Shown here: positions 10,486-60,300 of the stretch, piece by piece
Numbering within the stretch: the first letter of the stretch is position 1
Layout of the letters: each line of letters begins with the position of its first letter
Assembly: GCA_945910005.1 (NCBI GenBank)
Contig: OX246747.1
Coordinates: forward strand, 33,708,293 to 33,772,292
Direction of reading: 5' to 3'
DNA from: Isoperla grammatica
Taxonomy: Eukaryota; Arthropoda; Insecta; Plecoptera; Perlodidae
Length of the DNA: 64,000 nucleotides
The notes under the pieces: model-generated
The model's database searches: none
What the model was told of the DNA's origin: nothing
The model's input: the letters and a program-made list of their open reading frames with translations, nothing else
Position numbers and translations under genes: made by a program

Positions 10486-10910
10486 TGTATTTATTTATTT
10501 ATTTATTTATTTTATTGTAGGAATTAAGGCCAGTGTAGGGCACAATGCCCTCTTTAGCCTGATGAGTGATGATTGATGAATGATAATGAGGAAGGGAGGA
10601 GGGGAAGCCTGATACCGGCACGTAGCCTACTCCTGCCGAAAAGTACCAAGGGGACCATCAGCTTTACGTCCCATCCGAAAAGACGGTGTAACTTTGACCA
10701 GTCATAGGTTCCTCCACTAACCTGGACTGTTGACGAGAAGAACGAAGCTGTTACACAAGCTTTGAACCCTCCAATCCGCTCTAACCAACGGTAACTAGTG
10801 TTTCGGAGGAGAGTGGTCACCCATCCACCTCCTGACCTAGCCCGAGGTTGATTATCTTCGGTGTTCGTTTGGGAACTGGCTAAGCGACCGCGGCTAAACC
10901 GTTGGCTTTA
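10486..10910 (-). mobile_element. Full-length SINE with 5S rRNA-like head
   Basis: On the minus strand the head contains AATCAACCTCGGGCTAGGTC and then TGGATGGGTGACC. These resemble the 3' half of 5S rRNA (AAGCA-CGTCGGGCC-GGTTAG and TGGATGGGTGACC, box C of its internal promoter). The body has the GATGGGACGTAAAGC motif, and the element ends in a (TAAA)n-type tail. A polymerase III-transcribed, 5S-derived SINE is the best fit. Confidence 0.6.
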
Positions 10911-10971: not shown

Positions 10972-11170
10972 CCGTTGTCTTAATGGGGGGGTTGGGGAGA
11001 GTGTACCCTAATCACGAGGTGGGGGGGGGGGGGGGGGTAATTTATTTTTATTTTATTTTAGGGCATTTTTATGGAATGATAAGCATAATATAGATGGGCC
11101 CCCTTAGTAAATCTTGGGGGGAGGGTTGACTCTGCCACCGGGCTATAAGGCCCAGCCACAGAAGAGAGCT
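10972..11170 (+). mobile_element. CR1-like LINE 3' UTR copy
   Basis: CTTGGGGGGAGGGTTG, TCTGCCACCGGGCTATAAGG and CCCAGCCACAGAAGAG recur almost unchanged at 36446-36497 in the full LINE. This is a severely 5'-truncated copy. Its 3' end runs straight into the CTA microsatellite. Confidence 0.85.
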
Positions 11171-11635: not shown

Positions 11636-12572
11636 CAGTGCCGTATCGAAGGGGGGGGGGGGGGGGTGATGATGATTCCTTGTTTGTTCTCCACTGGGAC
11701 CGTAGTAGGTCGTTTCTCAATTTTATTTAAACTTTAAATCCATCATTGTCCTCTAAATAGTTACTGCAGTATTAGTTTTTACTAACGTTTAAACATTTTT
11801 CTGTTTAGACCTTTGCGTCGGCTTTATTGTTGGAGGGGGGGGGGGGGGGGGGTTGATGATGATTCCAAATTGTTTGTTCTCCAATTGACCGCCTAGTTGA
11901 TCGTTCTTACATACTCTGCTTGTTACCTCTAAAGTTCATGCAAATCGTTTCTTGTAAACTACGTTATACTCAGGGTTTGATGCATATAGTGGGTCAGGGA
12001 GGGGTGAAACCCATAATAGGTGTAAAGGCTGATGTAGATAAGCTTGTAGTGGGCTAGTGAGAGAAATGTGTTTTCGTAGCCTGAGGTGATCGCAGCTCGC
12101 AGTGAAACCCATAATGGGTGTAAAGCCTGATATAGATAAGCTTGTAGTGGGCTAGTGAGAGAAATGTGTTTTCGTAGCCTGAGGTGATCGCAGCTCACAG
12201 TGAAACCCATAATAGGTGTAAAGGCTAATGTAGATAAGCTTGTAGTGGGCTAGTGAGAGAAATGTGTTTTCGTAGCCTGAGGTGATCCCAGCTCGCAGTG
12301 AAACCCATAATAGGTGTAAAGGCTGATGTAGATAAGCTTGTAGTGGGCTAGTGAGAGAAATGTGTTTTCGTAGCCTGAGGTGATCGCAGCTCGCAGTGAA
12401 ACCCATAATAGGTGTAAAGCCTGGTGTAGATAAGCTTGATCCTACAATCCGTTATCTGTGCTTCTATATAGGCCTACATGCTTTTAAATTATAAGAATCG
12501 TTTTTGTAGGTAGGCCTAGTGGGGAGGTGCGAGGTGGGGTTAGGCCCCAAAATTCCCTTCGGTATGCCACTG
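11636..12572. mobile_element. TIR element carrying a 98-bp satellite
   Basis: The left end CAGTGCCGTATCGAAGGG matches the inverse of the right end CCCTTCGGTATGCCACTG with three mismatches. CAGTGGC-type ends are common in hAT elements. Inside are two poly-G/TGATGATGATTCC copies (about 11650 and 11838) and the satellite array. A target duplication is not clear. Confidence 0.45.
11975..12445. repeat. 98-bp satellite array, about five copies
   Basis: The unit contains GATAAGCTTGTAGTGGGCTA, GAGAAATGTGTTTTCGTAGC and TGAGGTGATCGCAGCTC with a 98-bp spacing. It is the same family as 55003-57108. The left flanks of the two arrays also match (TATACTCAGGG ... GGAGGGGTGAAACCC). Confidence 0.95.
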
Positions 12573-16277: not shown

Positions 16278-17245
16278 TTTTTTTTTTTTTTTTTCTTCTT
16301 GTGCCAAGATGGCTTTTTCAGCCATTCTTTTGTCTTACTATCCAATATAAAACTGCTTCCTTTTCTGGCCTGCTCATATCATTGGGCAGGGAGTCGATAA
16401 AAACCTTGAGGGCAGCACATCTAAAAAGATGTGCCCTGTCTTGTACATCGGAGCTGCACAATTTACACGTTGCCGGTTCTTTGCTGATGTTAAAGCGGCT
16501 CAGGTGATGCTGCAGGACGTCATGGCCTGTTGCCAGCCGGAACTGGGCGGTGGCCGTCTTTCTGGACCAATTTTTATCAGGTCCTCTGTTGATCTCTGCC
16601 CACCAGCTTTTGGCTCGTAAGGCCTCTTCATATGTGCTTTTGTACGCCTTTTTGATGGCTGTCTTGATCTTGATTTTAGCACCTCTGAAGGACGTAGCCG
16701 CAGCTTGTGGAGGAGCAGCTTTCGTAGCTTTTTTGGCCAAGAAATCAGCTTTTTCGTTGCCCAGGATCTGGCAGTGGCTAGGGATCCATTGAATTTCTAG
16801 TTCTTTATTCTGCTGACGGAGACTGGCAAGGGAGTTTTTGAAGAGCAGCGATTGGGGGTGGAGGTTCACTGCTTGAGAGACAAATTGGATTGCTGAAGCG
16901 CTGTCGCTAAGGATAACAAATTTTGTCTTGTTGAGTGGGAAGGCTGGCACCTCTGCAATTTTTTGAGCCGCTCTGGCGATGGCTGCAACCTCCGCATCGA
17001 AGTATGTTGTGCCGACGCCCATCGGAGTGGCTTCCTCGAAGAAAGTGCAGTAGATGCTATAGCCGGTTCTATGTGTGGCTGAGTCGTAGGAGCCATCCGT
17101 GAAAATGTGCACCCACTCTTTCAGAGGAAAATACTTTTTCAAGTGTACCTCAGTTAGCGCTTTCAGCTCTTTCTTGTCGAGACCTTCCTTTTTCTCAATG
17201 CCATCTATTTTTATTCCTGGTATAAGCTGATTGGATCTATCTGGA
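16278..17245 (-). mobile_element. 5'-truncated LINE with RNase H domain, 12-bp TSD
   Basis: The direct repeat ACATTATATTGT flanks it (16266-16277 and 17246-17257), and a poly-A tail (poly-T on plus) marks its 3' end. The open frame (stop at 16318) encodes an RNase HI-like domain with D-E-D-D residues in FTDGSY, DAEVAAI, LSDSASA and NEKADFLAKKA. A Cys-His knuckle (TCKLCSSDVQDRAHLFRC) follows, then a short C terminus. This layout is typical of I-clade and related LINEs. The endonuclease and reverse transcriptase parts are missing. It sits inside the exon-like array, between modules C and D. Confidence 0.92.
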
Positions 17246-17505
17246 ACATTATATTGTAAGTATGCTATAAATAAATAAGTCGCAATGAGTATAATAAACA
17301 AATTAAAAAAGCATCATAAATGCACAAAGATGTAGTAGCAGTGCTTATTTAATAAAATATTGTATTTAAATTTAATGGGTAATATCAACGGGATATTTTT
17401 GGCGCCTAGGTATTACCACGATATTTTTTTTTACTACTGCATGATCATTGATATGGAATTTTACGTCATTTAACATTCCTAAATAAAACTGTTCTATCTT
17501 TCTAG

Positions 17506-30115: not shown

Positions 30116-31257
30116 GGTACATCCATCATTATAGAATCAATAACTTTTCTTCAATGTATCTCATTTTGAAAATATTTTCTTCGAGTTCTTCAAGTCATGT
30201 CACTCATTTCACTTCGCATGATCAGTCTTCTTTTGTCAAGTAAAAAGCAATCATAATCAAAAACACAAAACATTTTAAAGCACGTGAAATCAACTATAAC
30301 GACAATCATGAACAGATTTTTGTAAAAGTCAATTTGAAGTTGCCACTGTTCGTTCACTCCAGATAGGAGTAAAATCTTCATGTTAATTTTGTTTTTTAGA
30401 TTGATAATTAGTTAATTACTACTTAATTATAAACATCGTATGCTAAATAGTAGGTCATCACATAATTATTAACAACATAGGCCCTAAGCACTGTTTAACT
30501 TCATTCCTTATTTTTGTCAAATGTCATTTGGAACTGTTCCCATCTCTGAAATCGGTAATCACTTTTGATAAGACAATATAGGCCTATACATAAATACGTA
30601 AGAAGTGAGCACACCACTGTTCAGATTAGAGGGGTATAAAAAATTCAAATGTTCTTTAGCAGGTCTGCAAAACTACGGATTATATAATACTACTGTGTAG
30701 ATCAAAGACATTTAAAAAAGTAGGCTATATATATATAATATTACACAAAACTTACTATTCAGACTTAACTCTTGACAGTTATGAAAACATTCTTCAGAAG
30801 AACATATATCAACAGTAAATTATGATTCTCTAAACTGAACATACCAATAGCCTATGTACAATTCATACATTTCTAAATTATTGAATCATTTATACACAAT
30901 GGTACTTACTTCAATTACATGACTATTGTTAACATTAATTAGTTTTACAATTTAATAACAAGACAATAGTCTACTATTTAATAGGCTTAGGCCGCTTATG
31001 AAACTCCATATCTAGATAACATCAACAAACACTACATAGGCCTACAATAGACATATGCACAACCTAGCAAACATAGCTTATTTGACAAATGCACTTTCTA
31101 GCCAATTAACAAAATACATTTAAACATGAATTATCATTCAATATGCCAAGAACAGAACAATCAATCCGATTAATTCAAAAGTATTAACACTTAAGTAAAA
31201 AGTTTTCTTGTAATATTATACTGAAAAAGATTGTTTATGAATCTTGATGGTAAATAC
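30116..31257. other. No gene recognised
   Basis: AT-rich sequence up to the LINE 5' end. No exon or structured repeat seen. Confidence 0.55.
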
Positions 31258-31601
31258 AGTTGCTCACAACTCGTCGAGGTGGTCGGACGTGCTTTCGGGA
31301 TTTCCGGGCTGATAGATACATTACAATACAAAGGCTGAGCGGCTGAGCTGTCACTGACATATAGCGGAGAAACAAGGGGTGTGGCAGATAAGTACTCCTC
31401 TCAAGTATAAGTGGGCATCTTATTTCATTTTTAGGGAAGTGTTGTGGGGTGTTTAATACATTTATTTATAATACATTTTAAGGTGATTTTAGGGATTTTA
31501 AATAATTGGATTTTAAAATATTTTAGGCGTTTTATTTCATAATTTTTGCGCAAGTGTTGTAGGTTCCTATTGTTGTTCATATTGTTGTGAGTTATTGTGA
31601 A

Positions 31602-32045
31602 ATGGGGGATGATCTATGTGGAGTTTGTGGCAAGCCTGTGGGGGATCAGGATCAGGGGATTGGTTGTGAAGGGAGGTGTCAGGGTTGGTTTCATATAGGT
31701 TGTGTGGGCGTATCGCAAGAGGCTTATGAGGGGGTTGGGGGGGAGGGCTTTGAGTGGTATTGTCCCAAGTGTAGGACTGGGAGGGTGGGAATGGCCTGTA
31801 TTGAGGAGGAGGTTTGGAGAGGTTTGATAGATGAATTGGAGGAGCTGAGAGGCATGAATCGTAGGGTGTTGGGGGAAGAAGGGTTGCTGCAAAGGTTGAA
31901 GGAGGAAGTGGAGGGGCTTAGGGAAGTTAATGCAAATTGTGAAAGGAGGATTGAGGAGTTGGAACTCGCCGTAAAGGAGTTGAAAGAGGGGAAAAGAGTG
32001 TTGGAGACGTTGACTGGAGGAGGGAAGGGGGGAGGTAGCTGTTGA
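31602..32045 (+). CDS. LINE ORF1a: PHD finger plus coiled coil
   Basis: First ATG at 31602; 147 residues. A PHD-type zinc finger occupies residues 6-57 with ligands C6, C9, C22, C26, H31, C34, C54, C57 (CGVC...CEGRCQGWFHIGC...WYCPKC). PHD fingers usually bind histone H3 tails. Residues 70-140 are a Leu/Glu-rich coiled coil, likely for oligomerisation. It ends in a Gly-rich tail at TGA 32043-32045, in a poly-G context where the frame of ORF1b is offset by one base. PHD and esterase modules are known in ORF1 of CR1-like elements, so this and the next frame were probably one protein. Confidence 0.85.
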   Translation: MGDDLCGVCGKPVGDQDQGIGCEGRCQGWFHIGCVGVSQEAYEGVGGEGFEWYCPKCRTGRVGMACIEEEVWRGLIDELEELRGMNRRVLGEEGLLQRLKEEVEGLREVNANCERRIEELELAVKELKEGKRVLETLTGGGKGGGSC

Positions 32046-32067
32046 TGAAGTGGTATTAGGGGTGGGG

Positions 32068-33162
32068 ATGGGAGTGGAAGTACATAGTGAGTGTGCGGGG
32101 TTAGAGAAGGAGGAGTTTAGTGGATTAATTGTGGGAGGAGGTAGGGTTGAGGGGGAGGGTGGGAAGGTTGTAGCTGAGGGCGTGGAGGTAGAGGGGAAGG
32201 GTGGTGGTGTCACTGAACGTGTTAGCGACTTGTTTCAAGTGACAGGGGTCCAAGCATTGGCGCATTGCGTGGGGGCGGATTTTAAAATGAGTGCGGGCAT
32301 TGCAAAGAGTTTTCGGGATAGGTATGGGAGGGTAGAAAATTTGAGGAGGCAGGGGAAGGGTGTAGGGGAGGTAGCAGAGATGGTGGTTGATGGTATGATG
32401 TTGTGGTACATGGTGACGAAGGGGAGATCTTGTGGGAAGCCTAAGCTGGAGGATGTGGAAGAGTGTCTGAAGAAAGTGAGGGATAGGTGTGCTGACAAGG
32501 GAATTAAGCGGGTGGGTATGCCCAGGGTTGGGTGCGGGTTGGACTGTCTGAAATGGGAGGATGTACGGGGGGTGATGGAGGGGGTTTTCGATGGATCAGG
32601 GGTGGAGGTTGTGGTGTGCAGCAGGGAAGAGGGAAGGGAGGGGAGGTTGATGCCAGGAATAAGCAAGTTCCTGCTCATTGGGGATTCCATGATTGGTAAA
32701 GCAGCGCGGGTGTGGCAGGCGAATGGTGGAGAAGCCGAGGTGTATGGGGGGATTAGGATAGGCGAAGTGACGGAGATGGTGGAGGGAAGGCGGGGAAGTG
32801 ATGATATTGAAGTGGTAGTGCTTAATGTGGGTACGAATGACCTGGGGAGGGGTGCAAGTGGTCTGGAGGTGGCAAGGCAAATGGAGGGGTTGGTGAGGAT
32901 GGTGAAGGAAAGATATAGCCATGCAAGGGTAGTGGTTGCGGGAGTGCTGGATAGGACGGATAGGAAAGGAATTAGGAAGGAAACTATTGTAGAAGTGAAT
33001 GAGAGGTTGGCCGGGGTGTGTGGGGTGGTCGGGGCGACGTTCGTAGACAGCAGGGTGTGGGTGGGGAGGGAGTTTTTATCGGGGGACGGTCTGCATTTAA
33101 ACCGCGTTGGGGCGAGGGAGCTAGGGCATCTTCTTGTTAGGGTAGCTCAGAGTCTGGCATGA
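32068..33162 (+). CDS. LINE ORF1b: TARG1-like macrodomain fused to SGNH hydrolase
   Basis: The frame is open from about 32021, after a stop; the first ATG is 32068 (364 residues). Counting from codon 32050, residues 57-192 match the ADP-ribosyl hydrolase TARG1/OARD1: DLF, ALAHCVGADFKMSAGIAKSF, MVTKGRSCGKPKLEDV and MPRVGCGLDCLKWEDV. Both TARG1 catalytic residues have counterparts, K124 (human K84) and D165 (human D125). Residues 205-369 are an SGNH/GDSL esterase-like domain with block I GDS (211-213), block III NVGTND (259-264) and block V DGLHLN (345-350). I infer an ORF1 product that binds or cleaves ADP-ribose ester links and has an esterase module. Activity is untested. Confidence 0.88.
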   Translation: MGVEVHSECAGLEKEEFSGLIVGGGRVEGEGGKVVAEGVEVEGKGGGVTERVSDLFQVTGVQALAHCVGADFKMSAGIAKSFRDRYGRVENLRRQGKGVGEVAEMVVDGMMLWYMVTKGRSCGKPKLEDVEECLKKVRDRCADKGIKRVGMPRVGCGLDCLKWEDVRGVMEGVFDGSGVEVVVCSREEGREGRLMPGISKFLLIGDSMIGKAARVWQANGGEAEVYGGIRIGEVTEMVEGRRGSDDIEVVVLNVGTNDLGRGASGLEVARQMEGLVRMVKERYSHARVVVAGVLDRTDRKGIRKETIVEVNERLAGVCGVVGATFVDSRVWVGREFLSGDGLHLNRVGARELGHLLVRVAQSLA

Positions 33163-33237
33163 CAGGAAAAAAGGCAAGGAAGTGTTGGTGGAAAGGGGTA
33201 TGGGTGTGATAGGGGTTGTAGGGTTGGAGTCAGACTT

Positions 33238-36078
33238 ATGGTAGTAAATTGTAGGAGTGTCAGGAGTGTAAATAGGATGGATAGGCTATGGTCGCTAATT
33301 GAGGTCTATGAGCCGGACGTGGTGGTATGCGTTGAGACTTGGTTAGATGAGGAGGTTGGAAATGGAGAGGTAGGTAGGAAAGGTTTTGACATATTTCGTA
33401 GGGACAGGAATAAGAATGGTGGTGGCGTTATGGTTGTTAGCAAGAGTGAGGTTAGGGGTAGGTTAATGTGGGAGGACAAAGAAGTGGAGATGTTGTGTGT
33501 AAGGGTTACGCTAGGAGAGGGTGTTCATATGGACGTTGTTGGGGTGTATAGACCCAAGGATACTGGTGAATGGGAGGTGTTGGATAGGATTGAGGAGGTA
33601 GTGTCGAGGGGGGAGGAGAGGGCGTTGGTGATTGCAGGGGACTTGAATATGCCTGGGGTTCATTGGGAGGGGGGTAGGGAGGATTTGGGTGGAAGGAGAC
33701 AAGAGTGGGCATGTAGGGTGATTAATGAGGGTTTTGTGCAGGTTGTGAAGGAGGGTACTAGGGCTACTGTAAGTGAAAGGGGACAAAAGAATAACATTTT
33801 GGATGTGGTTTTAGTGAGACCGGAGGAGGCGTGGAGTTACTCGGAGGTGGTGGAGGGTATGAGTGATCACAAGGTGCCATTGGTGGAGTTGGAGTTGGAA
33901 GTCAAAAAAAGGGTGGATGATCAGGAAGAAAATATAAGAGCGGGAAAAATATGGAAGTATGGTATGGCTAATGTTGAGTGTTTGCAAAGGGAATTGTTGG
34001 ACAGGTATGAGGCTTGGGCACATAGGGAGGAGGGGGCAAATGAAAAATGGGAAAGTTTTCTTGTTATTTATAGGGAGCTTTTGGAACGATTTGTGCCGTG
34101 TGGGAGAAGGAGAGGAGGCGAGGACCCACCTTATTACAACAGGAGGATTAGATGGTTAAAAAGGAAGTGTAGAGGGTTGTATAGGAACTACAGAAGGTCA
34201 GGTAAGGGAAGGGATAAACTTAAGGAGTGGGAAGGGATCCTAGCTAGGGTCAAGGTTGAAGCTAGGGATGAGTACATGTTGGGCTTAATGGATGAGGAAC
34301 GGGGGCAGGGGCAAAGGTTATACCGTTATCTAGGGAGTCGGAAAGGAAAGGGGGAGATTCCGACTTTAAGGGGGGATGGGGGTGAGGTGTTTTCAACTAA
34401 TATGGAAAAAGCTGAGGCTCTGAATGATTATTATGGAGGGGTGTTTCAGGACGATGGGGGGGTGGGGCTGGGGGGGAGCGACCAGGGTGGGGCGGGAGGG
34501 AATACCTTTTCAATATCCAATAGGGATGTGAGAAGGGTGATAAACAGTTTGGGGGAGGGGAAGGCTCCGGGGCTGGATGGGCTGACGAGTAGGTTTCTGA
34601 AGATTGGTGGGGAGGCAATCGTGTCATATATGGGGGATATATGTAGGAGGTCGTTACAGGAGGGTAAAATCCCAGAAGGGTGGAGGGAGGGTTTAGTTGT
34701 GCCAATTTACAAGGGTGGGGAGAGAGGGCAGGTGGGAAATTACAGACCGGTAAGCCTTACATCTGTTGGAAGCAAGGTAATGGAGAGGTTGATTGTAAAC
34801 TATATTAGGAGGTTGTTGGAGGGGAGTGGGTTTTTCGTTAAAGAGCAGCACGGGTTCAGAGAGGGGCATTCTTGTGAATCGCAGTTGGTGGGTCTGGTAC
34901 AGGATATAGGGGAGGCTTTGGATGGGGGGCAGGAGGTGGATGCCATATTTTTGGATTTCCAGAAAGCTTTTGATAGGGTACCGCATGGGAGGCTCATAGA
35001 GAAGGTTGATGGTTGTGTTGAGGATAAGGGGGTGGTGAATTGGATTAGGGATTTTTTAACAAGCAGGCACCAGAGGGTGAGGGTGGGAAATGACATATCA
35101 AGTAGTGCACGCGTCACCTCTGGGGTGCCGCAGGGGTCGGTTTTAGGTCCCCTGTTATTTATCATTTTTATGAATGACATTGGAATTGGATTAAAGTCGA
35201 ATATTAGGCTGTTTGCTGACGACTTCGTCATTTACAGGGTAATAAAGGGGATGATTGATGTAAGGTTGTTGCAAAAGGATTTGGAGGGGATTGAGGAGTG
35301 GCTAAGAATAAATGGAATGGGTTTAAATGCGGGTAAGTGTAAGATGGTGGGTTTTACAAGGAAAATGAAGGCGGAGTGCAGGGAGTACATGTTGATGGAA
35401 ACCTTGTTAGAGAGGGTCGACAGTTACAATTACAAGTATTTAGGCATTGTGCTGGCTGACAACTTGGGGTGGGGGAAACAGGTGCAGGAGGTAGTTAGGA
35501 AGGGAAATAGGTCTTTAGCATTTGTAATGAGGAATCTGAGGGGGGCCAGTAGGATGGTCAAGGATAAGGCTTATAGGACGGTGGTCCGGCCGGTGTTGGA
35601 ATACGGAGGAGCAGTGTGGGACCCGTACAGGAAGGGGGAAGTTGAGGAGGTCGAAAAGGTGCAGGGTAGGGCAGCGAGAAGAGTTACGGGTAAGGTTAGG
35701 CGGTGGAGATGGGAGGATGAGGAGGGTGGTAATGGGAGGAGGGTGTACGACAGTGTTTCAGGAATGGTGAGGGAGCTGGGGTGGGAGTCTTTGGAGGAAA
35801 GGCGGAGGAAGGATAGGCTAGGGAACTTTTATAGGATCGCTCGGGGGGTGGGAGGATGGAAAGAAATGCAAGAAAGATTGGTTAAGGGAAAGTATCGGGC
35901 GAGGGGGGACCATGAGTGGAAATTTCAGAGGGAGGGTAGGAATACTGATGTGGGGAAATTTTCTTTTATCGATCGGACAATTAAAGAATGGAACGAGTTG
36001 CCTGGGAGGGTAGTTGGGCAGCATTGCGTAAAGAATTTTAGACGGAATCTCATTCAGGGTGCGGGTGGGGAGGGATGA
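33238..36078 (+). CDS. LINE ORF2: APE endonuclease and reverse transcriptase
   Basis: 946 residues from ATG 33238. The AP-endonuclease-like domain is at the N terminus: NCRS (4-7), ETW with E33, GVYRP, AGDLN (D134, N136) and SDH (208-210). The reverse transcriptase has APGLDGLTSRFLK, NYRPVSLTS, FLDFQKAFDRVPH, SGVPQGSVLGPLLF and the catalytic FADD at 659-662 (35212-35223). The C-terminal region has VLEYGGAVW and WNELPGRVV motifs. All catalytic motifs are intact, so it may be active. This organisation and the 3' repeats point to the CR1/L2 group. Confidence 0.95.
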   Translation: MVVNCRSVRSVNRMDRLWSLIEVYEPDVVVCVETWLDEEVGNGEVGRKGFDIFRRDRNKNGGGVMVVSKSEVRGRLMWEDKEVEMLCVRVTLGEGVHMDVVGVYRPKDTGEWEVLDRIEEVVSRGEERALVIAGDLNMPGVHWEGGREDLGGRRQEWACRVINEGFVQVVKEGTRATVSERGQKNNILDVVLVRPEEAWSYSEVVEGMSDHKVPLVELELEVKKRVDDQEENIRAGKIWKYGMANVECLQRELLDRYEAWAHREEGANEKWESFLVIYRELLERFVPCGRRRGGEDPPYYNRRIRWLKRKCRGLYRNYRRSGKGRDKLKEWEGILARVKVEARDEYMLGLMDEERGQGQRLYRYLGSRKGKGEIPTLRGDGGEVFSTNMEKAEALNDYYGGVFQDDGGVGLGGSDQGGAGGNTFSISNRDVRRVINSLGEGKAPGLDGLTSRFLKIGGEAIVSYMGDICRRSLQEGKIPEGWREGLVVPIYKGGERGQVGNYRPVSLTSVGSKVMERLIVNYIRRLLEGSGFFVKEQHGFREGHSCESQLVGLVQDIGEALDGGQEVDAIFLDFQKAFDRVPHGRLIEKVDGCVEDKGVVNWIRDFLTSRHQRVRVGNDISSSARVTSGVPQGSVLGPLLFIIFMNDIGIGLKSNIRLFADDFVIYRVIKGMIDVRLLQKDLEGIEEWLRINGMGLNAGKCKMVGFTRKMKAECREYMLMETLLERVDSYNYKYLGIVLADNLGWGKQVQEVVRKGNRSLAFVMRNLRGASRMVKDKAYRTVVRPVLEYGGAVWDPYRKGEVEEVEKVQGRAARRVTGKVRRWRWEDEEGGNGRRVYDSVSGMVRELGWESLEERRRKDRLGNFYRIARGVGGWKEMQERLVKGKYRARGDHEWKFQREGRNTDVGKFSFIDRTIKEWNELPGRVVGQHCVKNFRRNLIQGAGGEG

Positions 36079-36498
36079 AATTACTAAATTTTTACTAACT
36101 TACGAAAAGGGGTTTTATATTATTGAGGGTTGTACTTGTTTTAATTAGTGGACACAGTAAGTAACGTTTTTAATAACTATTTTATACTAGTATTGCTCGT
36201 GATTTTGGTACTTTTACTTAAGTGGACAATGGGCATATAGGCTTAATTTAGGCTGATGCCTTGCATTGCTATTTTTATGGACTTGACCGATCAGTGGTTT
36301 TAATTATGGACTTGGGCCGTGGTCTTAACGGGGGGATGGGTAGACTGTACCTAAATCATGAGGTAGGGGGGTAAATTTTATTTTGATTTTATTTTGATAT
36401 GAACATATATATCTGTGTATATATAGATGCCCACTTATTAAATCTTGGGGGGAGGGTTGCCTCTGCCACCGGGTTATAAGGCCCAGCCGCAGAAGAGT

Positions 36499-36523
36499 GT
36501 CAGTAATCAGTAATCAGTAATCA
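36499..36523 (+). repeat. LINE 3' tail repeat
   Basis: Three to four units of CAGTAAT at the end of the element. Tandem 3' tails of this sort guide target-primed reverse transcription in CR1-like LINEs. Confidence 0.8.
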
Positions 36524-36531
36524 GTAAATAC

Positions 36532-37014
36532 CAAGTGTGGTAGACTACTAAATGTTGTCCCATGTATTAGTAGTATTTTACTAGTAAGTAGTAGACCTAG
36601 GCCTACCCACATTATTTTAAGTGAACAATTATACTGAATTAGACCTATGTATCGGTACAGTAATTATTCTGTAAGTAACAACTTAGTTCTGTTTAAGCAC
36701 TTTTTTAATATATGTCCTTCGCAAGCCACAACCGAACTGTTAATCTGGCCCACCATTGACCACAATATACTTTACAATCTTGAGGATGGGTCAACGTGAC
36801 CTAAGCCCGCATGCATTCACTGTTGAATCTGAAACAAGACACAGAAATTAATTAAAATACATACCGTGGGCCTACCGTCATATTAGGAGCTCTTGGCTTA
36901 CACGTTGCTTCTTTGTCCTCACTAATATTGATATTATTGCCCTATACCCAGGTAGCCAATATGGCTAGGGCCTTTGCTCTCATTTTGAAAGCGCTAACTT
37001 GGTAGAGGCATGAA
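36532..37014. other. Spacer between two LINEs
   Basis: No gene or known repeat seen. TAGGCCTA-type motifs are present. Confidence 0.5.
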
Positions 37015-39452
37015 TTGTGCATGAATTATACATGGCATGAATTATATTCCTCGACAAATACTGACGAACAGTACAATTGTTTTCTGAAAACCTTCAAGCT
37101 TATGTTTGAAGAGGCATTCCCACTAAAAATCACAAATATAAAAAACAAACATAAGAGATGGGTAACACCTAAGTTAAGAGATCAGGGAATAAAGCTACGG
37201 ACACTACATAGACAAGCTAAATTATCAGGAAACCCTCTAAAAATAGAAGACTATAAAGCCCAAAATAAACTGTATAAAAAAGACCTAGCAAAAGCTAAGC
37301 AAACAACAAATACTAACTGGATACAAAAATCCGAAAATAAAAGCAAGGCCATCTGGAACATAGTAAAGAATGAGACGTATACTGATAAGACCCGGAAAGA
37401 CCACAATATAGTACTATCCATAGCGTCATTGGTAAACAATCATGTACCCGTTAAAAATAACCTCGGGGCCACGAATACAAAAATAGACCAGCCGCACTCG
37501 GTGGCATCGCTGTTTAATAACTATTTTGTAAATATACACAAAAGCATAGTGACAACTAGCACTAAATCAGATCCAATAGAGCTATTTCACAAACAAAATA
37601 AAACATTCGTTAACAAATTCAACTTCACTGAAATCACGGAAAAGGACATCGTGACTTCTGTAAGAAAACTAAAAAATACTAGCTCCTGTGGTTGGGATGA
37701 AATCCCAACCACAGTGATTAAAAAATGTATATCCTCATTAAAAGCTCCCCTTAGCTTTGTATTTAATACATCAATAAAAAGTGGAGTTTTTCCTGAGAGA
37801 TTAAAATATTCAGTAATCACACCCATATATAAAAACGGTGATAAGACAGATATAGCGAACTACAGACCCATCTCGATACTACCCACCTTCTCAAAAGTGC
37901 TCGAGAGTATTGTTAAAAAACAGCTAATGGACTTCCTTACAGAAAATAAAATCATAACTGGTGCCCAACATGGTTTCATGGTTGGCAGATCTACAAGCAC
38001 GGCATTTTTTGATTTTAATAAATATGTAATAAATTCTCTAGATGCGGGTAAACATACACTGGGTATTTTCTGTGACCTTTCGAAGGCATTCGATTGTGTA
38101 GACTTTGACATTCTCTTAGACAAACTAAGACTAATAGGTTTCAGTGATCAAACATTAAACTGGTTTGAATCCTATTTAAAAAAAAGAAAGCAACAAGTTA
38201 AAATTGTATCTGCAAACGAGAAGGGGCACATAGAAAGTCATTGCTCCCCATGGCTAGAAAGTCTAGCAGGAGTGCCCCAAGGCTCCATCCTGGGCCCGAT
38301 TGCTTTCCTCGTTTATATAAATGACCTAGAATCTTACATAAATTCCGATGAAGTAATACTTTATGCGGATGATATAACATCCCTAATTATAGACAACTGC
38401 CTCTTAGCTATTGAAGAAAAGGCTAATGCAGTTGCATTCAAAATAAATGACTGGTTATCAGCAAATAAACTAGCTTTAAACGGAAAAAAGACAAATTTCA
38501 TACACTTTAAACTAATAAAAAAGGCAGCTAAAGACAACCTAGTCGTTACAGTGAATAAAACGAAAATTAACGAGGTTGACCATTCAAAAATGCTAGGAAC
38601 CATAATAGACAACTCCCTTAGTTGGAAAGACCATTTAAAGTCCCTGTGTGCCCAGTTAGCATCCGCCTGCTTTGCCCTGAAAGTAATAAAAAACTCTATT
38701 GGCAGTAAAACTGCAAAAATGGCGTACCACGCATATTTTGAGGCTCGCCTCAAATATGCTATCCCCATGTGGGGTAACTCAACAAACTCTCAAGATGCTT
38801 TTATACTACAAAAGAGAGCTGTCAGAACCATTGCAGGCCTTAAAAACATTGAATCATGTAGAGAAGCTTTTAAAAATCTTCAAATCATAACTATGCCAAG
38901 CCTCTACATCCTGGAAATCCTAAAACAAGTAATTAAAAACAGGCAAGATTTCACACCAAACACAGGCATTCACACGCATAACACACGACAGACAGGACAC
39001 CTTCATACAAATCAATACAACACAAAAAAAGGTCAGACATCGATAGTAAATATGGGCGTAACCCTATATAATAGCCTACCTTCCAACATAAAAGACTTAA
39101 CAAATACAGACAAACAACTACTAGCAATAAAAACTTATCTGATAGAAAACTGCTTCTACAATATAAATGAATATATCAACAATGAAAAGGATGACATGTT
39201 TACCTATGCTTAAGTTATATGTAGGATAACAAATATGATACTGTCCACCAATCTAACCACTAAATTGTAAATAATTGTAAATATTTGTGTATGTGTATAC
39301 ATATAAATTATAGTAGATTTTTCTGAGTAGGTAATACAATACCTATGTAATAAGCTGTATATATATGTATAGTTATAGTACTAAATGACAACTCCAATGT
39401 TACACTGTAACCAAAAAGGATGCTAATAAAACTGAACTGAACTGAACTGAAG
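37015..39452 (+). mobile_element. 5'-truncated CR1-like LINE insertion
   Basis: Includes the open frame above, a 3' UTR of about 220 bp, AATAAAACTGAACTGAACTGAA and an (ACTGA)n tail ending near 39452. The exact 5' boundary and a target duplication were not found. Confidence 0.85.
37021..39213 (+). CDS. 5'-truncated LINE reverse transcriptase (second family)
   Basis: An open frame of about 730 residues starting within the linker before the RT domain; no endonuclease is left. RT motifs: NTSSCGWDEIPTTVIKK, NYRPISILPTFSKVLE, FCDLSKAFDCVDFDIL, AGVPQGSILGPIAFL and catalytic YADD at 38362-38373. The C terminus has YFEARLKYAIPMWGN. A-rich codon use contrasts with the G-rich LINE upstream, so it is a different family. 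No internal stop, but the missing 5' part makes it dead on its own. Confidence 0.92.
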   Translation: MNYTWHELYSSTNTDEQYNCFLKTFKLMFEEAFPLKITNIKNKHKRWVTPKLRDQGIKLRTLHRQAKLSGNPLKIEDYKAQNKLYKKDLAKAKQTTNTNWIQKSENKSKAIWNIVKNETYTDKTRKDHNIVLSIASLVNNHVPVKNNLGATNTKIDQPHSVASLFNNYFVNIHKSIVTTSTKSDPIELFHKQNKTFVNKFNFTEITEKDIVTSVRKLKNTSSCGWDEIPTTVIKKCISSLKAPLSFVFNTSIKSGVFPERLKYSVITPIYKNGDKTDIANYRPISILPTFSKVLESIVKKQLMDFLTENKIITGAQHGFMVGRSTSTAFFDFNKYVINSLDAGKHTLGIFCDLSKAFDCVDFDILLDKLRLIGFSDQTLNWFESYLKKRKQQVKIVSANEKGHIESHCSPWLESLAGVPQGSILGPIAFLVYINDLESYINSDEVILYADDITSLIIDNCLLAIEEKANAVAFKINDWLSANKLALNGKKTNFIHFKLIKKAAKDNLVVTVNKTKINEVDHSKMLGTIIDNSLSWKDHLKSLCAQLASACFALKVIKNSIGSKTAKMAYHAYFEARLKYAIPMWGNSTNSQDAFILQKRAVRTIAGLKNIESCREAFKNLQIITMPSLYILEILKQVIKNRQDFTPNTGIHTHNTRQTGHLHTNQYNTKKGQTSIVNMGVTLYNSLPSNIKDLTNTDKQLLAIKTYLIENCFYNINEYINNEKDDMFTYA

Positions 39453-51372: not shown

Positions 51373-54300
51373 CTGTAACGAAGACAAGACAATCATACCG
51401 GGGGGTAGTGACCTTGTATGACCTTGTAACCTTGTGGCCTTGTGACCTCGTGGACTTGTGACTTGTGACCTTGTAACCTTGTGACCTCGTAACCTCGTGA
51501 CCTTGTGACATCATGACCTTGTGTCCTTGTGACATTGTGACCTTGTGACCTTGTGATGGTGCGGGTGATTGTATTGTTATGTATTCTATATATTATCTGC
51601 ATTCTGCAACAGGACCGAGGTCCCACTAGTGCAAATTTAATATTCTGTACAATAAGATGATTGATGAATGATTATGGGGAGAGAGGAGGGAAAACCTGAT
51701 ACCAGCACGTAGCCTACTTCTGTCAAAGAGTACCGAGGGTACCATCGGCTTTACGAAAGGAGGTTGTCGTAAGGAAGGTAGTCGATTGCCGAGGACATAA
51801 TAATATGCAACAGGTAGGGAAGGGGAACGCAGAATGTCGACCTACAGCAAGTCATCCCCACAGAAGTAAAAGGAAGCCGCTATCTATCTCTGGTGCAGAA
51901 ACTCGAGCAGTAGGCGCGATACCTTTGGCGGTAAAGGCGATAAGATAACGCGCTATCAGTCCACGGGTTAGGGGGTCATCCACTGTTGGGTTATACCTTT
52001 GGCGGCACAGGTGATAAGATAACGCGCTATCAATACACGTGTTAGGGGTTATCTACTGTCGACTTTCTGCAGGTCGACTTTACGGGTACCCGTAGGGAAG
52101 TAGACTCACCCGCCAGGTGTCTCCAAAGCCCATCAGACTCTCCATGGTGCTGACGTCGCGTCCCTTGACCTTGAGCACCTCGATCACCTGGTTGCGCGTC
52201 TCCAACAGGCGCTGTTGGTTGTGCGCGTAAAAGTCGCGCTGTTTCAGTTGTATCTCCTGCGAGGCGCAACGCAGGTCCAACTCTTTGGTGCGTTCCAGCA
52301 TCTCGCGCATCGACGCCTTCAGCTCCGCCACCTGTAAGAGTCACCGCCCCCGTTAGAAGTAATCGGGCTGGTAAATGATATGGGCAGGTCAGAAAAAGAA
52401 GCCGTTTTATATTGGATAGCGAAGAAGAGGAATTGCTGAGGAAGGCATCTCTGCACAGGAAAAAAAAAAGAAGTGATCGCCTACCCCCACGGGTACGGAA
52501 CTACCCAAATTCAGACGGTCGAAAAATGATGATGATATTTGGGTTCGGTTGTACGTCACATATTTTTGCAACGAGGCTAATCGTGACTTGGTTGTAAAAC
52601 CTTTTTTAAATGCTTTGAAATTTTGCCAAAATAATATGATGTGATTCCCCCGAGAGTTTTTTCAATGAATATGATCCATTTTTAATTGTTCCTATTAAGC
52701 TTTTTTAAATAAACAAATATCTACCAACTTAGTTTTACAAGAACTCGTTAAACTATATCTAAGGGTCCTAGACCAGTTTTGAAAATGGTATATCATTTAT
52801 GACGCACTGGGGGTAGAAAATTGTCCTTGTACGAGTAAGAAAAAAAATCTTGAACGAAAAATTGCGTAAAAAAATAAAAAATAAAGCAAGCTCCATAAAT
52901 GTTCACGAGTATGTCGTGCGTCGCCCGAGTGACCACCGACCGAGGTGGGCGGTGGAGACCCGCGAAGGTGGCGCACCTGGTGTTGAAGAGTGGCGACCTC
53001 AACGCGATCCGCGTCCTCCGTCTCCGAGATGCGCAACGAGTTCAACAGGTCCTGGAGCTTCTCGATCTTCTCGTGGGCCAGACTACAGTGTTTCTCTCTG
53101 CAACAACAACAGGTGGCAGCACAGGTAGCTTTCAATAGACGTCACGTGGCGGCCATTATGAGGTACACATTGCTTGTTTACATTTGTTGTGTCAATAGGG
53201 CACTAGCAACACCGAAAGACAACAATGAAACAAATGAATGGAATCGATGGACAAACAACAAGCTGTCAAAAAATAATTACTTCTGATTTTGGAAAACAAA
53301 ACAAAAAACAAACAAATACACATACGAAACTTTCACTTAGTCGTTGTCCATCATTACAAGTTTTAAATGGCGAGCAGTTACTATTGCTACACTTGTTTTC
53401 ATTTGTATGGTTGCAATTTTATTATTTTGACAGCTGATTGTTTGTCCATCAGTTCAATTCATTTGTTCCATTGTTGCAGTACGGATGTAACGTCAGTTGC
53501 GGGTTCCCTATACAGTGTTTCTCTCTGCAACAACAACAACAGGTGGCAGCACGATCGTGACAACACCGAACACGTATTCATAGTCGTCACCTACCCCTAG
53601 AGCGCCCATTGTTGCCAGATAACAGTTTCTTGCAGGTTATTCCCCCCATATAGAAAACAAATCCATAGCAACAACGGGAGCCCCTAGGTAACGACTATGA
53701 ATACCTTAAGCAGTGTTTGATCAGAGACCATGACCCTTAAGAGCGAAGGATACCTCTACGTCAAAAACCGCGTATAATGTTTAGTGTTTAATTATATCTC
53801 AAGAATGAAACAAAAAATCTGAAATCTGAGTAATCAAGGCACTGTGGTTTGATAAGCCCTACAGACTGAATTATAAATGAATTTAACATTATATGCGTGT
53901 GCGTGTGCGTGTGCGTGTGCGTGTGCTCTCACCTGGCAGTCAGCCGCTCCTTCAGGTCTTTGTTCTCGTTCCGCATCTGTTCCATCTCCTCCACCAACTC
54001 GGCGTTAGGTTGCTCCAGGATCGTGAACTCGTTCTGTGAGGCCTTTATTTGACCCTCGTTCTCTTGCACCCACTGGTACATGTGCTCCTGTAACAGTGTC
54101 ACGTAAATGTAATCATATATTCAATTTCTATTATGCATGCTGTTAGAATAAGATTTCATTTCATTTTTATTCGTGCAATTTACAATTTACAATGGTTTGT
54201 GTAACACACGTCATAAATACATGGTGTAATACTAAAAATTAAAACAGAGTATAGTTGAGACTGTAAGAATGACGGCCCCCTCCTCATCCCCTCCACAGCT

Positions 54301-57300
54301 ACCCGACCCCCCTCAACTCCATGAAACAGCAAACTGAACAACTGAAACAAACTGATTTTCAGTTAAGTATTTCATTTTGTCAGGTTGTCATAAAGTTGAG
54401 GGGGGTCGGGTTGCTGTTGAGGGGATAAGGAGGGGGCCGTCATTCTTACAGTTTCTCAACTATAGTACAAATCTAGTTACATTATAACACACGACCATCG
54501 ACCAGTCTACAGCGTTCTTATTGAAAGGAAAGTTCACTACATTATAAAATTCATATCAAATACTGTAGGGCACTTTATACACAAATACAAATGAGAGTAC
54601 AAAATGTGAAATGAAATCACACTTTGTATTATTTATCAAAATGACAACTCGAATATTCCATATATATCATGTATAAAATCGAATTTTATAAAGAGGCTAA
54701 TAAATCTACATCTACATCTACACAGTGGTCAGGACGTACCAATATCTTTGCCACGACTGTACGTCGGACGGGAATGAGCAGTAGCCTATACGTCCGGCAG
54801 TTTTCTATGCGGTCCGCCACCGTGGCGGACCGCAAAGAAAACTAGTTGTAGGCTCTACGTACGCCAAGACGGCCAACGAATTGTAGGCTACACGGCCACC
54901 AGTATGTTGTTGCTAACTGTTATTGCTAAAGCTCTGAATTTCATAAGTGACTTATGACTAGGGTTGCCATAAGTTGTGGTGGTAAAAAGAGGACATTTTA
55001 ATAAAGAGTGGTATACTCAGGGATTAATGAGTCAAGGAGGGTTGAAACCCATGGTACGTGTACAGGCTGACGTAGATAAGCTTGTAATAGGCTAGTGAGA
55101 GAAATGTGTTTTCGTAGCCTGAGGTGATCCCAGCTCGCAGTGAAACCCATGATACGTGTACAGGCTGACGTAGATAAGCTTGTAATAGGCTAGTGAGAGA
55201 AATGTGTTTTCGTAGCCTGAGGTGATCCCAGCTCGCAGTGAAACCCATAATAGGTGTACAGGCTGATGTAGATAAGCTTGTAGTAGGCTAGTGAGAGAAA
55301 TGTGTTTTCGTAGCCTAATGTGATCCCAGCTCACAGTGATACCCATAATAGGTGTACAGGCTGATGAAGATAAGCTTGTAGTAGGCTAGTGAGAGAAATG
55401 TGTTTTCGTAGCCTGAGGTGATCCCAGCTCGCAGTGAAACCCATAATAGGTATACAGGCTGCTGTAGATAAGCTTGTAGTAGGCTAGTGAGAGAAATGTG
55501 TTTTCGTAGCCTGATGTGATCCCAGCTCACAGTGAAACTCATAATAGGTGTACAGGCTGATGTAGATAAGCTTGTAGTAGGCTAGTGAGAGAAATGTGTT
55601 TTCGTAGCCTGATGTGATCCCAGCTCACAGTGAAACCCATAATAGCTGTACAGGCTGATGTAGATAAGCTTGTAGTAGGCTAGTGAGAGAAATGTGTTTT
55701 CGTAGCCTGAGGTGATCCCCGCTCGCAGTGAAACCCATAATAGGTATACAGGCTGATGTAGATAAGCTTGTAGTAGGCTAGTGAGAGAAATGTGTTTTCG
55801 TAGCCTGATGTGATCCCAGCTCACAGTGAACCCCATAATAGGTGTACAGGCTGATGTAGATAAGCTTGTAGTAGGCTAGTGAGAAAAATGTGTTTTCGTA
55901 GCCTGAGGTGATCCCAGCTCACAGTGAAACCCATAATAGGTGTACAGGCTGATGTAGATAAGCTTGTAGTAGGCTAGTGAGAGAAATGTGTTTTCGTAGC
56001 CTGAAGTGATCCCAGCTCACAGTGAACCCCATAATAGGTGTACAGGCTGATGTAGATAAGCTTGTAGTAGGCTAGTGAGAAAAATGTGTTTTCGTAGCCT
56101 GAGGTGATCCCAGCTCACAGTGAAACCCATAATAGGTGTACAGGCTGCTGTAGATAAGCTTGTAGTGGGCTAGTGAGAGAAATGTGTTTTCGTAGCCTGA
56201 TGTGATCCCAGCTCACAGTGAAACCCATAATAGGTACATACAGGCTGCTGTAGATAAGCTTGTAGTAGGCTAGTGAGAGAAATGTGTTTTCGTAGCCTGA
56301 TGTGATCCCAGCTCACAGTGAAACCCATAATAGGTGTACAGGCTGATGTAGATAAGCTTGTAGTAGGCTAGTGAGAGAAATGTGATTTCGTAGCCTGATG
56401 TGATCCCAGCTCACAGTGAAACCCATAATAGGTGTACAGGCTGCTGTAGATAAGCTTGTAGTAGGCTAGTGAGAGAAATGTGTTTTCGTAGCCTGAGGTG
56501 ATCCCAGCTCACAGTGAAACCCATAATAGCTGTACAGGCTGCTGTAGATAAGCTTGTAGTAGGCTAGTGAGAGAAATGTGTTTTCGTAGCCTGATGTGAT
56601 CCCAGCTCACAGTGAAACCCATAATAGCTGTACAGGCTGCTGTAGATAAGCTTGTAGTAGGCTAGTGAGAGAAATGTGTTTTCGTAGCCTGAGGTGATCC
56701 CAGCTCACAGTGAAACCCATAATAGGTGTACAGGCTGCTGTAGATAAGCTTGTAGTAGGCTAGTGAGAGAAATGTGTTTTCGTAGCCTGAGGTGATCCCC
56801 GCTCGCAGTGAAACCCATAATAGGTATACAGGCTGATGTAGATAAGCTAGTAGTGGGCTAGTGAGAGAAATGTGTTTTCGTAGCCTGAGGTGATCGCAGC
56901 TCGCAGTGAAACCCATAACAGGTGTACAGGCTGATGTAGATAAGCTAGTAGTGGGCTAGTGAGGGAAATGTGTTTTCGTAGCCTGAGGTGATCGCAGCTC
57001 GCAGTGAAACCCATAACAGGTGTACAGGCTGATGTAGATAAGCTAGTAGTGGGCTAGTGAGGGAAATGTGTTTTTGTAGCCTGAGGTGATCGCAGCTCGC
57101 AGTGAAACATACACATTCATTCATTTCACTTATAACAGCATATCCACAAGAATTTAGTTTCAAATATCAACAATAAGTGCGTGTACTTCTTGCTTTGACT
57201 TTGTAACGCATGTAATGATGGTGTTCATTTGTTCTGTCTGCGTAAATAAATACAATGTGTACATTTGTGCCTTCATTTTTCATATTTTGTCTAAAACACA

Positions 57301-60300
57301 ATTTTAATATTATTTATTATTGTTGCATATTATTATTGTATTGTATATAATAAATAAAAGAATACGTGAATGTTGCTATGTGTTCACCTTACACTTCCCC
57401 TTCAATGTTTGTAATCATGTGGAACTATTGTTTGTGTTTATTATTGTTTGTATTGTATAATCAATAAAGGAATATGTGAATGTTGGTATGTTTTCACCCT
57501 ATCTCTCCAATATTTGCAACATGTATAACTATTGTTTGTCTTAATTATTAATTGTATTGTATAATCAATAAAATAATATGTGAATGTTGGTATATTTTCA
57601 CCCTACACTTTCCCTCCAATGTTTGTAATCATGTGGAACTATTGTTTGTGTTTATTATTGTTTGTATTGTATAATCAATAAAAGATTTATGAATGTTGGT
57701 ATGTGTTCACCCTACACAATGAGGCCCAGTATATTTGCGTTAACTTGAGTATTTCAACACTACAAACTCCCAAATAGAAAATAAAATAGACCACAACGAA
57801 CATACTTTCTCAAAAAACACACCGTTCGATAATATTTTAAACCTAGTTAGAAATAATTACGTTTATAGGTCCCTCCCTATACAACCTTTCATAGACTACG
57901 CATAGACGTAATTTCTTATTTGATAGAAGACGTGCGCATGTTTATTAGACATGAATACAATTGGCATTACGCTCTCTATTGGCAGATATAAACAAAGTGC
58001 AAGAAATTCCAGCTTGTTCGAGTTAATTACGTTTATAGGTCGTTGATACAACAGTTCATAGATTACGCTGTTAAACGTATACCATTGATTTGATAGAAGA
58101 CGTCGTGATATTTAACTGATTTGAACACTCCATCTTAACGTTTAGAGCTAATGGGCCATGTTTGTGTATTGAACCATTATAATCAGCTGTTAAACCAAGA
58201 TTTACTAGAAAACCACGATTGCCAATTTATATTAACGGAAATCGAAAGAATTTACCTTTTGAAAGGAAAAGAATTGTAACGAAATACAACAGCGCGCTTC
58301 CTGTTGGCCCTCTAAACTCTATTTCACGGTCTATTATACATATAATGGTCATTAGCTCTAAACGTTTCGTTACCACTAAGAGCGGATGGGCTTTATAGGC
58401 CACCTAGGTCAGGAGGTGGATGGGTGACCACTCTCCTCTGAAACGGTTAGAGCAGATTGGAGGGTTAGAAAGCTTGCGTGTAACAGCTTCGTTCTTCTCG
58501 TCAACTGCTCGGGAGTCCAGGTAAGTGGAGGAACCTATATGACTGGTCAAAGTTACACCGTCCTTTCGGATGGGACGTAAAGCCGATGGTCCCCTTGGTA
58601 CTTTTCGACATGAGTAGGCTACGTGCCGGTACCAGGCTTCCCCTCCTCCCTTCTTCATTATCATTCATCAATCATCACTCGTCAGGCTTAAGAGGGCATT
58701 GTGCCCTACACTGGCCTTAATTACAGTAAAATATATAAAATAATAGGCAACTCAAAGTAGACTAGATGCAATCTGGTGGCAATCAAATAAACTTCTATTA
58801 GGAGGAGATTACTCATCGTTGATTCGTTGAAACTATGAATGGCGCTGACAAGGAAGTAGCTTAGCAGCGCCATCTATTGTTAGTTTGAGTCTCCTGGTTG
58901 TGTAACCATCAATGGCGCTGACAAGGAGGTAGCTTAGCAGCGCTATCTATTGTTAGTTTGAGTCTCCTACACCGGCAAGCTTACCATGTCGTTGATCTTC
59001 TCGAGCAACACCATCTGTTCCTGTCTTAGGCCGTCGTTCTCCGTCTCCAGATCGGCCAGCCGACCCCGGCAGAGATTCAGCTGTTCCCACACGGACACCT
59101 CCCGCTCGTTCAGCCCAAAGTCTGTAGACAAAACACGACACATTATAGGTACACACACACATACACATACACTATAGGCAACCCAAGACAACCATACACA
59201 TGCTTTCGTCACAGGCGAGGCATTCGTAGCCAATCAGCGATCGGTGTGCCTCGGGCGGTTCGCTGGTTGGCTACGACTGCCTCGCCTGTGACGAAAGCAT
59301 GTCTAAGGTAGTCTTGAATTGCCTTTACACTGTACGACACATATATACTAGTCCCAACAAAAGTATTTGCATACCGATCTCAGGTCATTGTCTACTGCCC
59401 CCTTTCAACCGGGCCAACTGAAAGAAAATCAACAGGTATACCTGGCGATCTTTCACATTTTCGTAAATGTACGGTTCGGCTTATAGGCGGTTTGGCCACA
59501 CTCACCGTTACAAGTAACCAACGGAAGGTCTTAAATTATCCCCAATGGACCTGTTTAGATTAAATGGTATAGGAATTAGTAAAGTAGAAAATTAAACTGC
59601 CACCTTGGACTCGGCTGTGTCGTAAGCATCAGAATACTTTCGTTAGGACAAATATACACACTAGCCGGCATGTTTTCAAAAACCTATTTGCAGAGAAGCT
59701 ATATTTAAGGTAAATAATTATTCAAATGATTTTTTATTTTTTGGTAATGACAGTAAAAACTGTAATGATATAAATTTTTCGTAGGAATCCCAGTTATAGG
59801 GCGCACACTAGCTTTACCTGATGTGCCTATCTTCAGGTGACTAACTAGGTATATTAGGGTGTTTGGATAGCTGGTAAGGAATGTCCGAGGGACTCAATGC
59901 CAGCATTCGCCTTTAGGACTGAGGAAAACCTCGGCGGAAAATCCTTCAGTCAGGACTGCCGGTGGCCGAAATCGAACCGGCGACGTCCCAAACTAGAGTC
60001 ACGCGTCTTGTACCTCCGAGCCACCTCTAGGATGAGACTACAAAACGGTGATCGTCACCAAAAGCTACAAACGAATGCGAGAGATTGTAAAACGTCGATT
60101 GAAACGTTACCTTCCGGCATCGACGGTAACTCTCGTCCTGGATTTGTCTGCCGCACCAGATTGATTGTCGCCCCCTCCACCAGTTTCAGGTAGTCGTCCT
60201 TCTTCGCCAGCTTCCGTTCTAGGTTCAACCTGCGCAGACAGACGTGCGCACGCGCGTTTCAGGACATTTCATTGTCTACACATGTTATAGTTGTCCCAAG

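Follow-up and report, generated by a model that had tools for sequence, protein, structure and literature searches.

The window, as we call the whole 64,000-nucleotide stretch of Isoperla grammatica DNA that was analyzed, contains a LINE copy whose ORF1 sequence combines a PHD finger, a TARG1-type macrodomain and an SGNH esterase. Based on sequence comparisons, the macrodomain module is present in several LINE families of this genome, in two domain orders, and additionally in the pol frame of a Ty3/gypsy-type element. There are strong indications that selection maintains the macrodomain, most likely as a functional (ADP-ribosyl)hydrolase. The fusion of these three domains in a LINE had been claimed in a first-pass annotation and was confirmed by matches to PF13472 (1.8e-13) and PF00628 (5.6e-9) and by 38% identity to human TARG1.

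The LINE copy in the window and its sister copies

The copy was assigned to family A and delimited by blastn against other copies in its own genome, the partners aligning over 31251-36519 (L085), 31253-36509 (L083) and 31260-36514 (L086). It has the following layout:

31258..36499, + strand, whole LINE copy of family A (blastn against other copies; ends to ~10-20 bp)
31602..32045, + strand, 5' part of ORF1 with PHD finger and coiled-coil-like stretch (open frame 31563-32045, first ATG at 31602)
31617..31772, + strand, PHD finger (Pfam PF00628, 5.6e-9; residues 19-70 of the frame from 31563)
32014..33162, + strand, 3' part of ORF1 with linker, macrodomain and SGNH esterase (open 382-codon frame)
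32188..32625, + strand, TARG1-type macrodomain
32419..32421, + strand, codon of the catalytic Lys (K136 of the frame, equivalent to TARG1 K84)
32542..32544, + strand, codon of the catalytic Asp (D177 of the frame, equivalent to TARG1 D125)
32671..33144, + strand, SGNH/GDSL esterase domain (Pfam PF13472, 1.8e-13; 4c1b, 8.7e-8)
33163..33240, + strand, spacer from the ORF1 stop (33160-33162) to the ORF2 ATG (frame open, no coding signal)
33241..36078, + strand, ORF2 (endonuclease ~33247-33870, reverse transcriptase ~34732-35451)
36079..36499, + strand, 3' UTR, common to other copies
36500..36527, + strand, (TCAGTAA)4 repeat at the 3' end (tandem repeat search)

The coiled-coil-like stretch in the 5' part of ORF1 was called by eye, and the top PHD match in the PDB for the PHD finger was Pygopus (2.4e-10). 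Codon usage in the 3' part of ORF1 is coding from ~32025 onward. In ORF2, an APE-type endonuclease (PF03372, 4.3e-11) is followed in the same frame by a reverse transcriptase (RT; PF00078, 1.4e-32); LINE-1 ORF2p in the PDB matches with 1.2e-20, and no RNase H domain was detected by Pfam at E ≤ 0.1 in the 971-aa frame. The spacer between the ORFs had a codon score of -2.07, whereas 36 ORF2 blocks of equal length all scored at least 0.84; given this lack of coding signal, we consider it unlikely that the TGA at 33160 is read through into ORF2. Within the 3' UTR, positions 36421-36497 share 91% identity with another fragment at 11088-11166, whose 3' end at 11166 leads into a (TAC)n array, unlike the (TCAGTAA)4 repeat of the window copy. 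A candidate target-site duplication, GTAAATAC, was dropped, as an 8-mer match arises in 33% of shuffles. The sense strand of the element (31602-36078) is highly G-rich and C-poor, with G fractions of 0.40-0.45, C fractions of 0.07-0.09, a GC skew of ~0.6 and at most 10% C at every codon position. A CR1 clade label for this LINE rests on domain content and is not established; the RT tree of our own sequences comprised 11 rows, none of them labelled CR1 or L2.

The window copy itself cannot encode the full ORF1 protein in one frame, a break that the first-pass annotation had overlooked: its 5' part ends at a frameshift stop at 32045. In the sister copies L083, L084 and L085 the PHD and macro-SGNH parts are continuous in a single ORF1 of 535 aa, and these single-frame copies are 99% identical to the window copy. 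The G-rich tract that separates coiled coil and linker is 8 bp shorter in the window copy, and the PHD and macrodomain parts are therefore in different frames. L086 has the same G-rich tract as L083-L085, but a stop further on. Apart from this, the window copy and L085 show only 8 mismatches over 5.27 kb (99.5% identity), which indicates that family A moved recently. Judged by its sisters, the two ORF1 frames reflect damage in the window copy and not in the family. Two genuine ORFs joined by a programmed shift or re-initiation were considered and dropped, because the sister copies have one frame.

The macrodomain and the esterase

The fold of the macrodomain is closest to TARG1. Lys136 and Asp177 of the window frame are in register with the catalytic Lys84 and Asp125 of TARG1, so that the earlier claim of retained catalytic residues held. 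Identity to human TARG1 was 36-52% in 14 retroelement macrodomain rows, and both catalytic residues were present in all 22 retroelement macrodomain rows compared, a set that excludes the damaged copy L088, in which the catalytic Lys is replaced by Glu. In a separate count of 22 ORF1 rows, from which L086, L087 and L099 were left out due to broken frames, 20 bear the macrodomain; the Asp is kept in 20/20 of these and the Lys in 19/20, with L088 as the exception. The residues are retained though the ORF1s of families C and D are only 26-31% identical to that of family A. Published studies describe human TARG1 as stripping ADP-ribose from DNA, with an inactive K84A mutant (PMC8501950, PMC11102865), and as a remover of aspartate/glutamate-linked ADP-ribose (PMC10933786).

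Among the wider relatives, 29 TARG1-like macrodomains from Planctomycetes, Chloroflexi, other bacteria and viral contigs (L024-L032, L034, L036-L043, L047, L064-L067, L069-L074) have Gln in place of the catalytic Lys, and at the Asp position Gly in 24 and Ala in 5. Going by these substitutions, the Gln-bearing macrodomains probably have another activity.

Purifying selection was assessed from dN/dS ratios (NG86). Between L084 (family A) and L090 (family B), where dS is near saturation (1.8), the macrodomain (138 codons) gave a ratio of 0.104, SGNH 0.179 and PHD 0.288. Among very similar copies, macrodomain ratios, based on few changes, scattered between 0 and 0.95 without clear constraint: 0.949 for L090 vs L106, 0.558 for the window copy vs L084 and 0.494 for L090 vs L093, and in four pairs of similar copies no replacement change and a few silent ones. 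This scatter in young copies is as expected for post-insertion decay. For the more distant pairs L095-L098 (within family C) and L101-L102 (within family D) dS is saturated and the ratio not computable. Of 28 columns conserved in 48 relatives with both Lys and Asp, 25 are kept in the window macrodomain, compared to identity with the stand-alone TARG1-like protein P0002 at 39 of the 110 other columns (Fisher 1.9e-7), a test that does not tell whether the constraint acted before or after capture. The third-position composition of the macrodomain segment nearly equals that of ORF2, so the segment has probably been resident for a long time.

The nearest solved sequence relative of the window SGNH domain is the esterase of the ZfL2-1 LINE ORF1p (4c1b, 8.7e-8). 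In 22/22 ORF1 rows all five catalytic positions (catalytic Ser, oxyanion Gly and Asn, Asp and His) are kept, in agreement with the first-pass claim of an intact SGNH site. The ZfL2-1 study describes an SGNH domain behind a coiled coil with the five catalytic positions conserved, as in the window family, and terms H191 and S228 transposon-specific (PMC3905857). The window family differs in having a macrodomain before SGNH and, at the equivalents of H191 and S228, Asn and Ala; families A and B have Asn and Ala/Gly, family C His and Ser, and family D His and Thr. Since ZfL2-1 is the nearest relative and family C keeps His and Ser, the esterase likely derives from known transposon stock, families A and B having lost the H191/S228 signature. 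The single-sequence model of the SGNH domain was poor (pLDDT 62.6), and its best PDB matches were mostly SGNH/GDSL-type hydrolases with an rmsd of 6-12 Å.

Distribution of the module among retroelements

With the macro-SGNH frame as query, the genome (874 Mb, 603 contigs) gave at least 120 matched places, which is a lower bound for the repeat family, some places being two pieces of one copy. A first sample of 20 stretches of 6.9-8.1 kb each was fetched. Long open ORF1s, measured stop to stop, had 535 aa in family A, 547-574 aa in B, 599-766 aa in C and 670-681 aa in D. The first-pass annotation had proposed a profile search for macro and SGNH domains; in a Pfam scan of ten long ORF1s, Macro was found in 10/10 (8 above the curated cut-off), Lipase_GDSL_2 in 8/10 at E ≤ 0.01 (5 above cut-off) and PHD in 9/10 (4 above cut-off), and motif residues were visible in the alignment where a Pfam model was silent. 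All four families share a single-frame ORF1 with the order PHD, coiled coil, macrodomain, SGNH. Otherwise they differ strongly, with ORF2 identities of 24-35%. A fragment in the window at 60552-60710 (- strand) has 85% identity at the protein level to the C-terminal part of the family B ORF2.

Family E (L103, L104, L105) has PHD, coiled coil and SGNH without a macrodomain. Its SGNH domain is 76% identical to that of family A, and in ORF2 the family shares 62% identity with A and 63% with B; its ORF1 is a single open frame of 379 aa in L103 and broken in L104 and L105. As families A, B, C and D all carry the macrodomain, the simplest reading is that family E probably lost it.

A second search of the genome, with P0002 as query, gave 150 scored matches of 297 candidates, every one at E ≤ 3.7e-26 and 135 of them in open frames of at least 300 aa. 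From this match list 11 loci were fetched; L112 and L119 were fragments. By blastp, the other nine were 37-51% identical to human TARG1 (E 6e-32 to 1e-45). The Pfam macro model was above cut-off only in L113 and L114, weaker in L110, L111, L115, L116 and L117, and silent in L109 and L118; for LINEs with the reverse order, and for the LTR element, the assignment is based on BLAST similarity to TARG1. The macrodomain precedes SGNH in L110, L113 and L114, and SGNH precedes the macrodomain in L111, L115, L116, L117 and L118. SGNH was detected by Pfam in L110, L111, L114, L116 and L118 (below cut-off in L110, L111 and L118) and read by eye from motifs in L113, L115 and L117. An endonuclease frame lies downstream in L111, L114, L116 and L118 (below the Pfam cut-off in L114 and L118). 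The ORF1 of L114 contains a truncated macrodomain like that of family D1, followed by a second, complete macrodomain and SGNH, which suggests a chimera from recombination between ORF1s.

L109 is a Ty3/gypsy-type element, with a gag frame followed by one frame for aspartic protease, macrodomain, RT, RNase H and integrase. It resembles other Ty3/gypsy retrotransposons in its zinc-knuckle gag, enzyme set and LTRs, but differs from them in the TARG1-type macrodomain between protease and RT (TARG1 match 4.2e-38). In gag, the zinc knuckle was above cut-off and the Ty3 capsid model only below its cut-off; Pfam detected no esterase in those gag and pol frames that were scanned. The LTRs (C9:28202479-28203206 and C9:28193524-28194250; 728 bp) are 99.86% identical, and a 1598-aa frame occurs at three places in the P0002 match list, L109 included. 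Frames of 286, 145 and 113 aa were also seen between pol and the 3' LTR (L109 with L120-L123, G000:C9:28193524-28203206). The first-pass annotation had overlooked this spread of the module over several LINE families in two orders and a Ty3/gypsy-type pol, as well as its absence in family E.

In macrodomain trees, the retroelement sequences group with human TARG1 against those of phages and bacteria, with support of 86/85 in a 35-row tree (22/80 relatives taken) and 73/85 in a larger tree (37/44 rows, leaving out four near-duplicate LINE rows and three viral rows). In the larger tree a single clade of retroelement macrodomains was neither established nor rejected (AU p 0.42-0.43), the SGNH-then-macro group was supported with 97/92, and the LTR element's macrodomain adjoined that of family C (84/85). 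The retroelement macrodomains may go back to one capture followed by exchange, or to several captures. Family D grouped with A/B in the 35-row macrodomain tree (97/86). In the RT tree it instead joined another LINE (94/95), namely the second LINE RT of the window, a 735-aa frame at 37006-39213 (+ strand) that is 24% identical to the first RT over 412 residues. An ORF1 swap in family D is only a suggestion, because AU tests do not reject the alternatives (p 0.09 and 0.078) and the A/B+D group was not recovered in the larger tree. A pairing of the window macrodomain with P0002 (98/93 in the first tree) vanished with more retroelement rows. The host OARD1 gene was not found in our searches of the genome, and C1:21585491, considered as a possible OARD1 exon, reads as a family D2 fragment.

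Searches of the viral (viral_contigs) and prokaryotic (genome_contigs) sets revealed no close relative of the fusion, nor did a set of 5.8 billion proteins with the full ORF or its macrodomain region, one search of which scored only the 7995 candidates sharing most words; the macrodomain piece alone found seven stand-alone proteins there. As these sets are prokaryotic or viral, or of uncertain animal coverage, the absence says little on other animals. Fifteen phage records, e.g., Bacillus phage G and Fusobacterium phages, match the TARG1-like macrodomain; the matches span the macrodomain part only, and 0/15 cover 80% of the query. The phage proteins represent a parallel use of the domain by other selfish elements.

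LINEs of the CR1/L2 type with PHD and/or esterase ORF1s were reportedly described by Kapitonov and Jurka in 2003. In such LINEs with type III and IV ORF1s (PMC4120745), ORF1 has PHD and/or esterase and the EN-RT ORF2 lacks RNase H, as here; the window family adds a TARG1-type macrodomain, placed after the coiled coil and ahead of the esterase, and no word starting with 'macro' occurs in the available text of that paper. It gives esterase ORF1s only in two vertebrate groups; PMC3905857 reports them in many animal phyla. The first-pass annotation knew of no described LINE with this combination, in agreement with our literature search, in which no macrodomain in a retroelement appeared in titles or abstract starts among the matches listed; as the search did not extend to Repbase, Dfam, preprints or most subscription journals, a catalogue entry for such an element may exist. 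One paper, in the text available, mentions macrodomain and retroelement, not together (PMC7217437).

Possible role of the macrodomain, and other features of the window

Of the two parts of our reading, the enzyme is well supported and its role is inferred; the action on PARP signalling suggested in the first-pass annotation belongs to the latter part, as no sequence result shows it. We consider it rather probable that the macrodomain is an active (ADP-ribosyl)hydrolase which removes ADP-ribose set by host PARPs on element proteins or nucleic acids. LINE ORF1p travels with the element's RNA. With the intact ORF1p arranged as PHD finger, coiled coil, TARG1-type macrodomain and SGNH esterase, the RNP would carry the enzyme to the target nick, where ADP-ribose could be removed from element proteins, cDNA or nicked target DNA, or from RNA ends. 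Following published work on the respective domains, the PHD finger might read histone tails and the esterase might handle membrane or lipid steps. PARPs act in antiviral control and at strand breaks, and PARP2 has reportedly been found active at LINE-1 integration sites. ZAP and PARP12 are named in one study among the interferon-stimulated proteins associated with LINE-1 ORF1p (PMC9839780). It is because of these links and of the activities of TARG1 that we favour an eraser on the RNP.

Human TARG1/OARD1, alike in fold and catalytic Lys and Asp, differs in being a stand-alone host enzyme, whereas here the domain is part of a retroelement ORF1 or pol. RNA virus macrodomains (alphavirus nsP3 and others) and phage TARG1-like proteins likewise pair a selfish element with a macrodomain of shared fold, but the alphavirus macrodomains among the matches listed are only 10-17% identical. 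That several LINE families and a Ty3/gypsy-type pol carry the same type of domain speaks for a common host pressure. Family E, without the domain, suggests that it is accessory and not core machinery; with two retroelement classes carrying it and one family lacking it, an arms-race accessory fits better than a core function.

Some macrodomains bind ADP-ribose without cleaving it, and the domain might accordingly be a reader that tethers the RNP to PARylated chromatin at breaks and takes part in site choice with the PHD finger, itself a reader in the same protein. We regard this as unlikely, given that the catalytic Lys and Asp, needless for a pure reader, are both kept in every one of the 22 macrodomain rows. 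Still less probable is a metabolic role, not directed against defence, in which macrodomain and esterase act on small molecules such as O-acyl-ADP-ribose: two TARG1 sequences in the PDB are named O-acetyl-ADP-ribose deacetylase 1 and the two domains lie side by side in LINE families of either order, but Pfam shows no esterase next to the macrodomain in the scanned frames of the LTR element, and family E has the esterase with no macrodomain. That the domain is a functionless passenger, a captured piece of a host gene, is very improbable despite its absence from family E and the lack of clear constraint in very young copies, in view of the dN/dS of 0.10 between families A and B and the catalytic residues kept across divergent ORF1s.

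Beyond the hydrolase activity itself, we tentatively suggest, at somewhat less than even confidence, that LINEs and a Ty3/gypsy-type element repeatedly took up, shuffled and exchanged a TARG1-type hydrolase as a counter-defence, and that ADP-ribosylation serves this lineage as a general defence of the germline against retrotransposition. If true, ADP-ribosylation would restrain retrotransposition here as it does some viruses and phages. We know of no earlier retrotransposon-encoded eraser of ADP-ribosylation. The proposal that ADP-ribosylation restricts animal retrotransposition, and that elements counter it with a virus-type enzyme, is testable, and natural variants are at hand for comparison: families that bear the domain next to family E, which lacks it, LINEs of either domain order, and an LTR element whose pol contains the macrodomain.

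Several further features were observed in the window. A 331-aa frame at 16321-17313 (- strand) has an RNase H domain (PF00075, 5.4e-11) and is probably part of another retroelement. A 5S rRNA-like match (Rfam RF00001) lies at 10783-10906 (- strand), with parts of the repeat also at 58404-58743 and 51656-51755, possibly a 5S-derived SINE. Finally, a 98-bp tandem repeat forms two arrays, at 12004-12438 and 55043-57108, which are ~93% alike and 43 kb apart.
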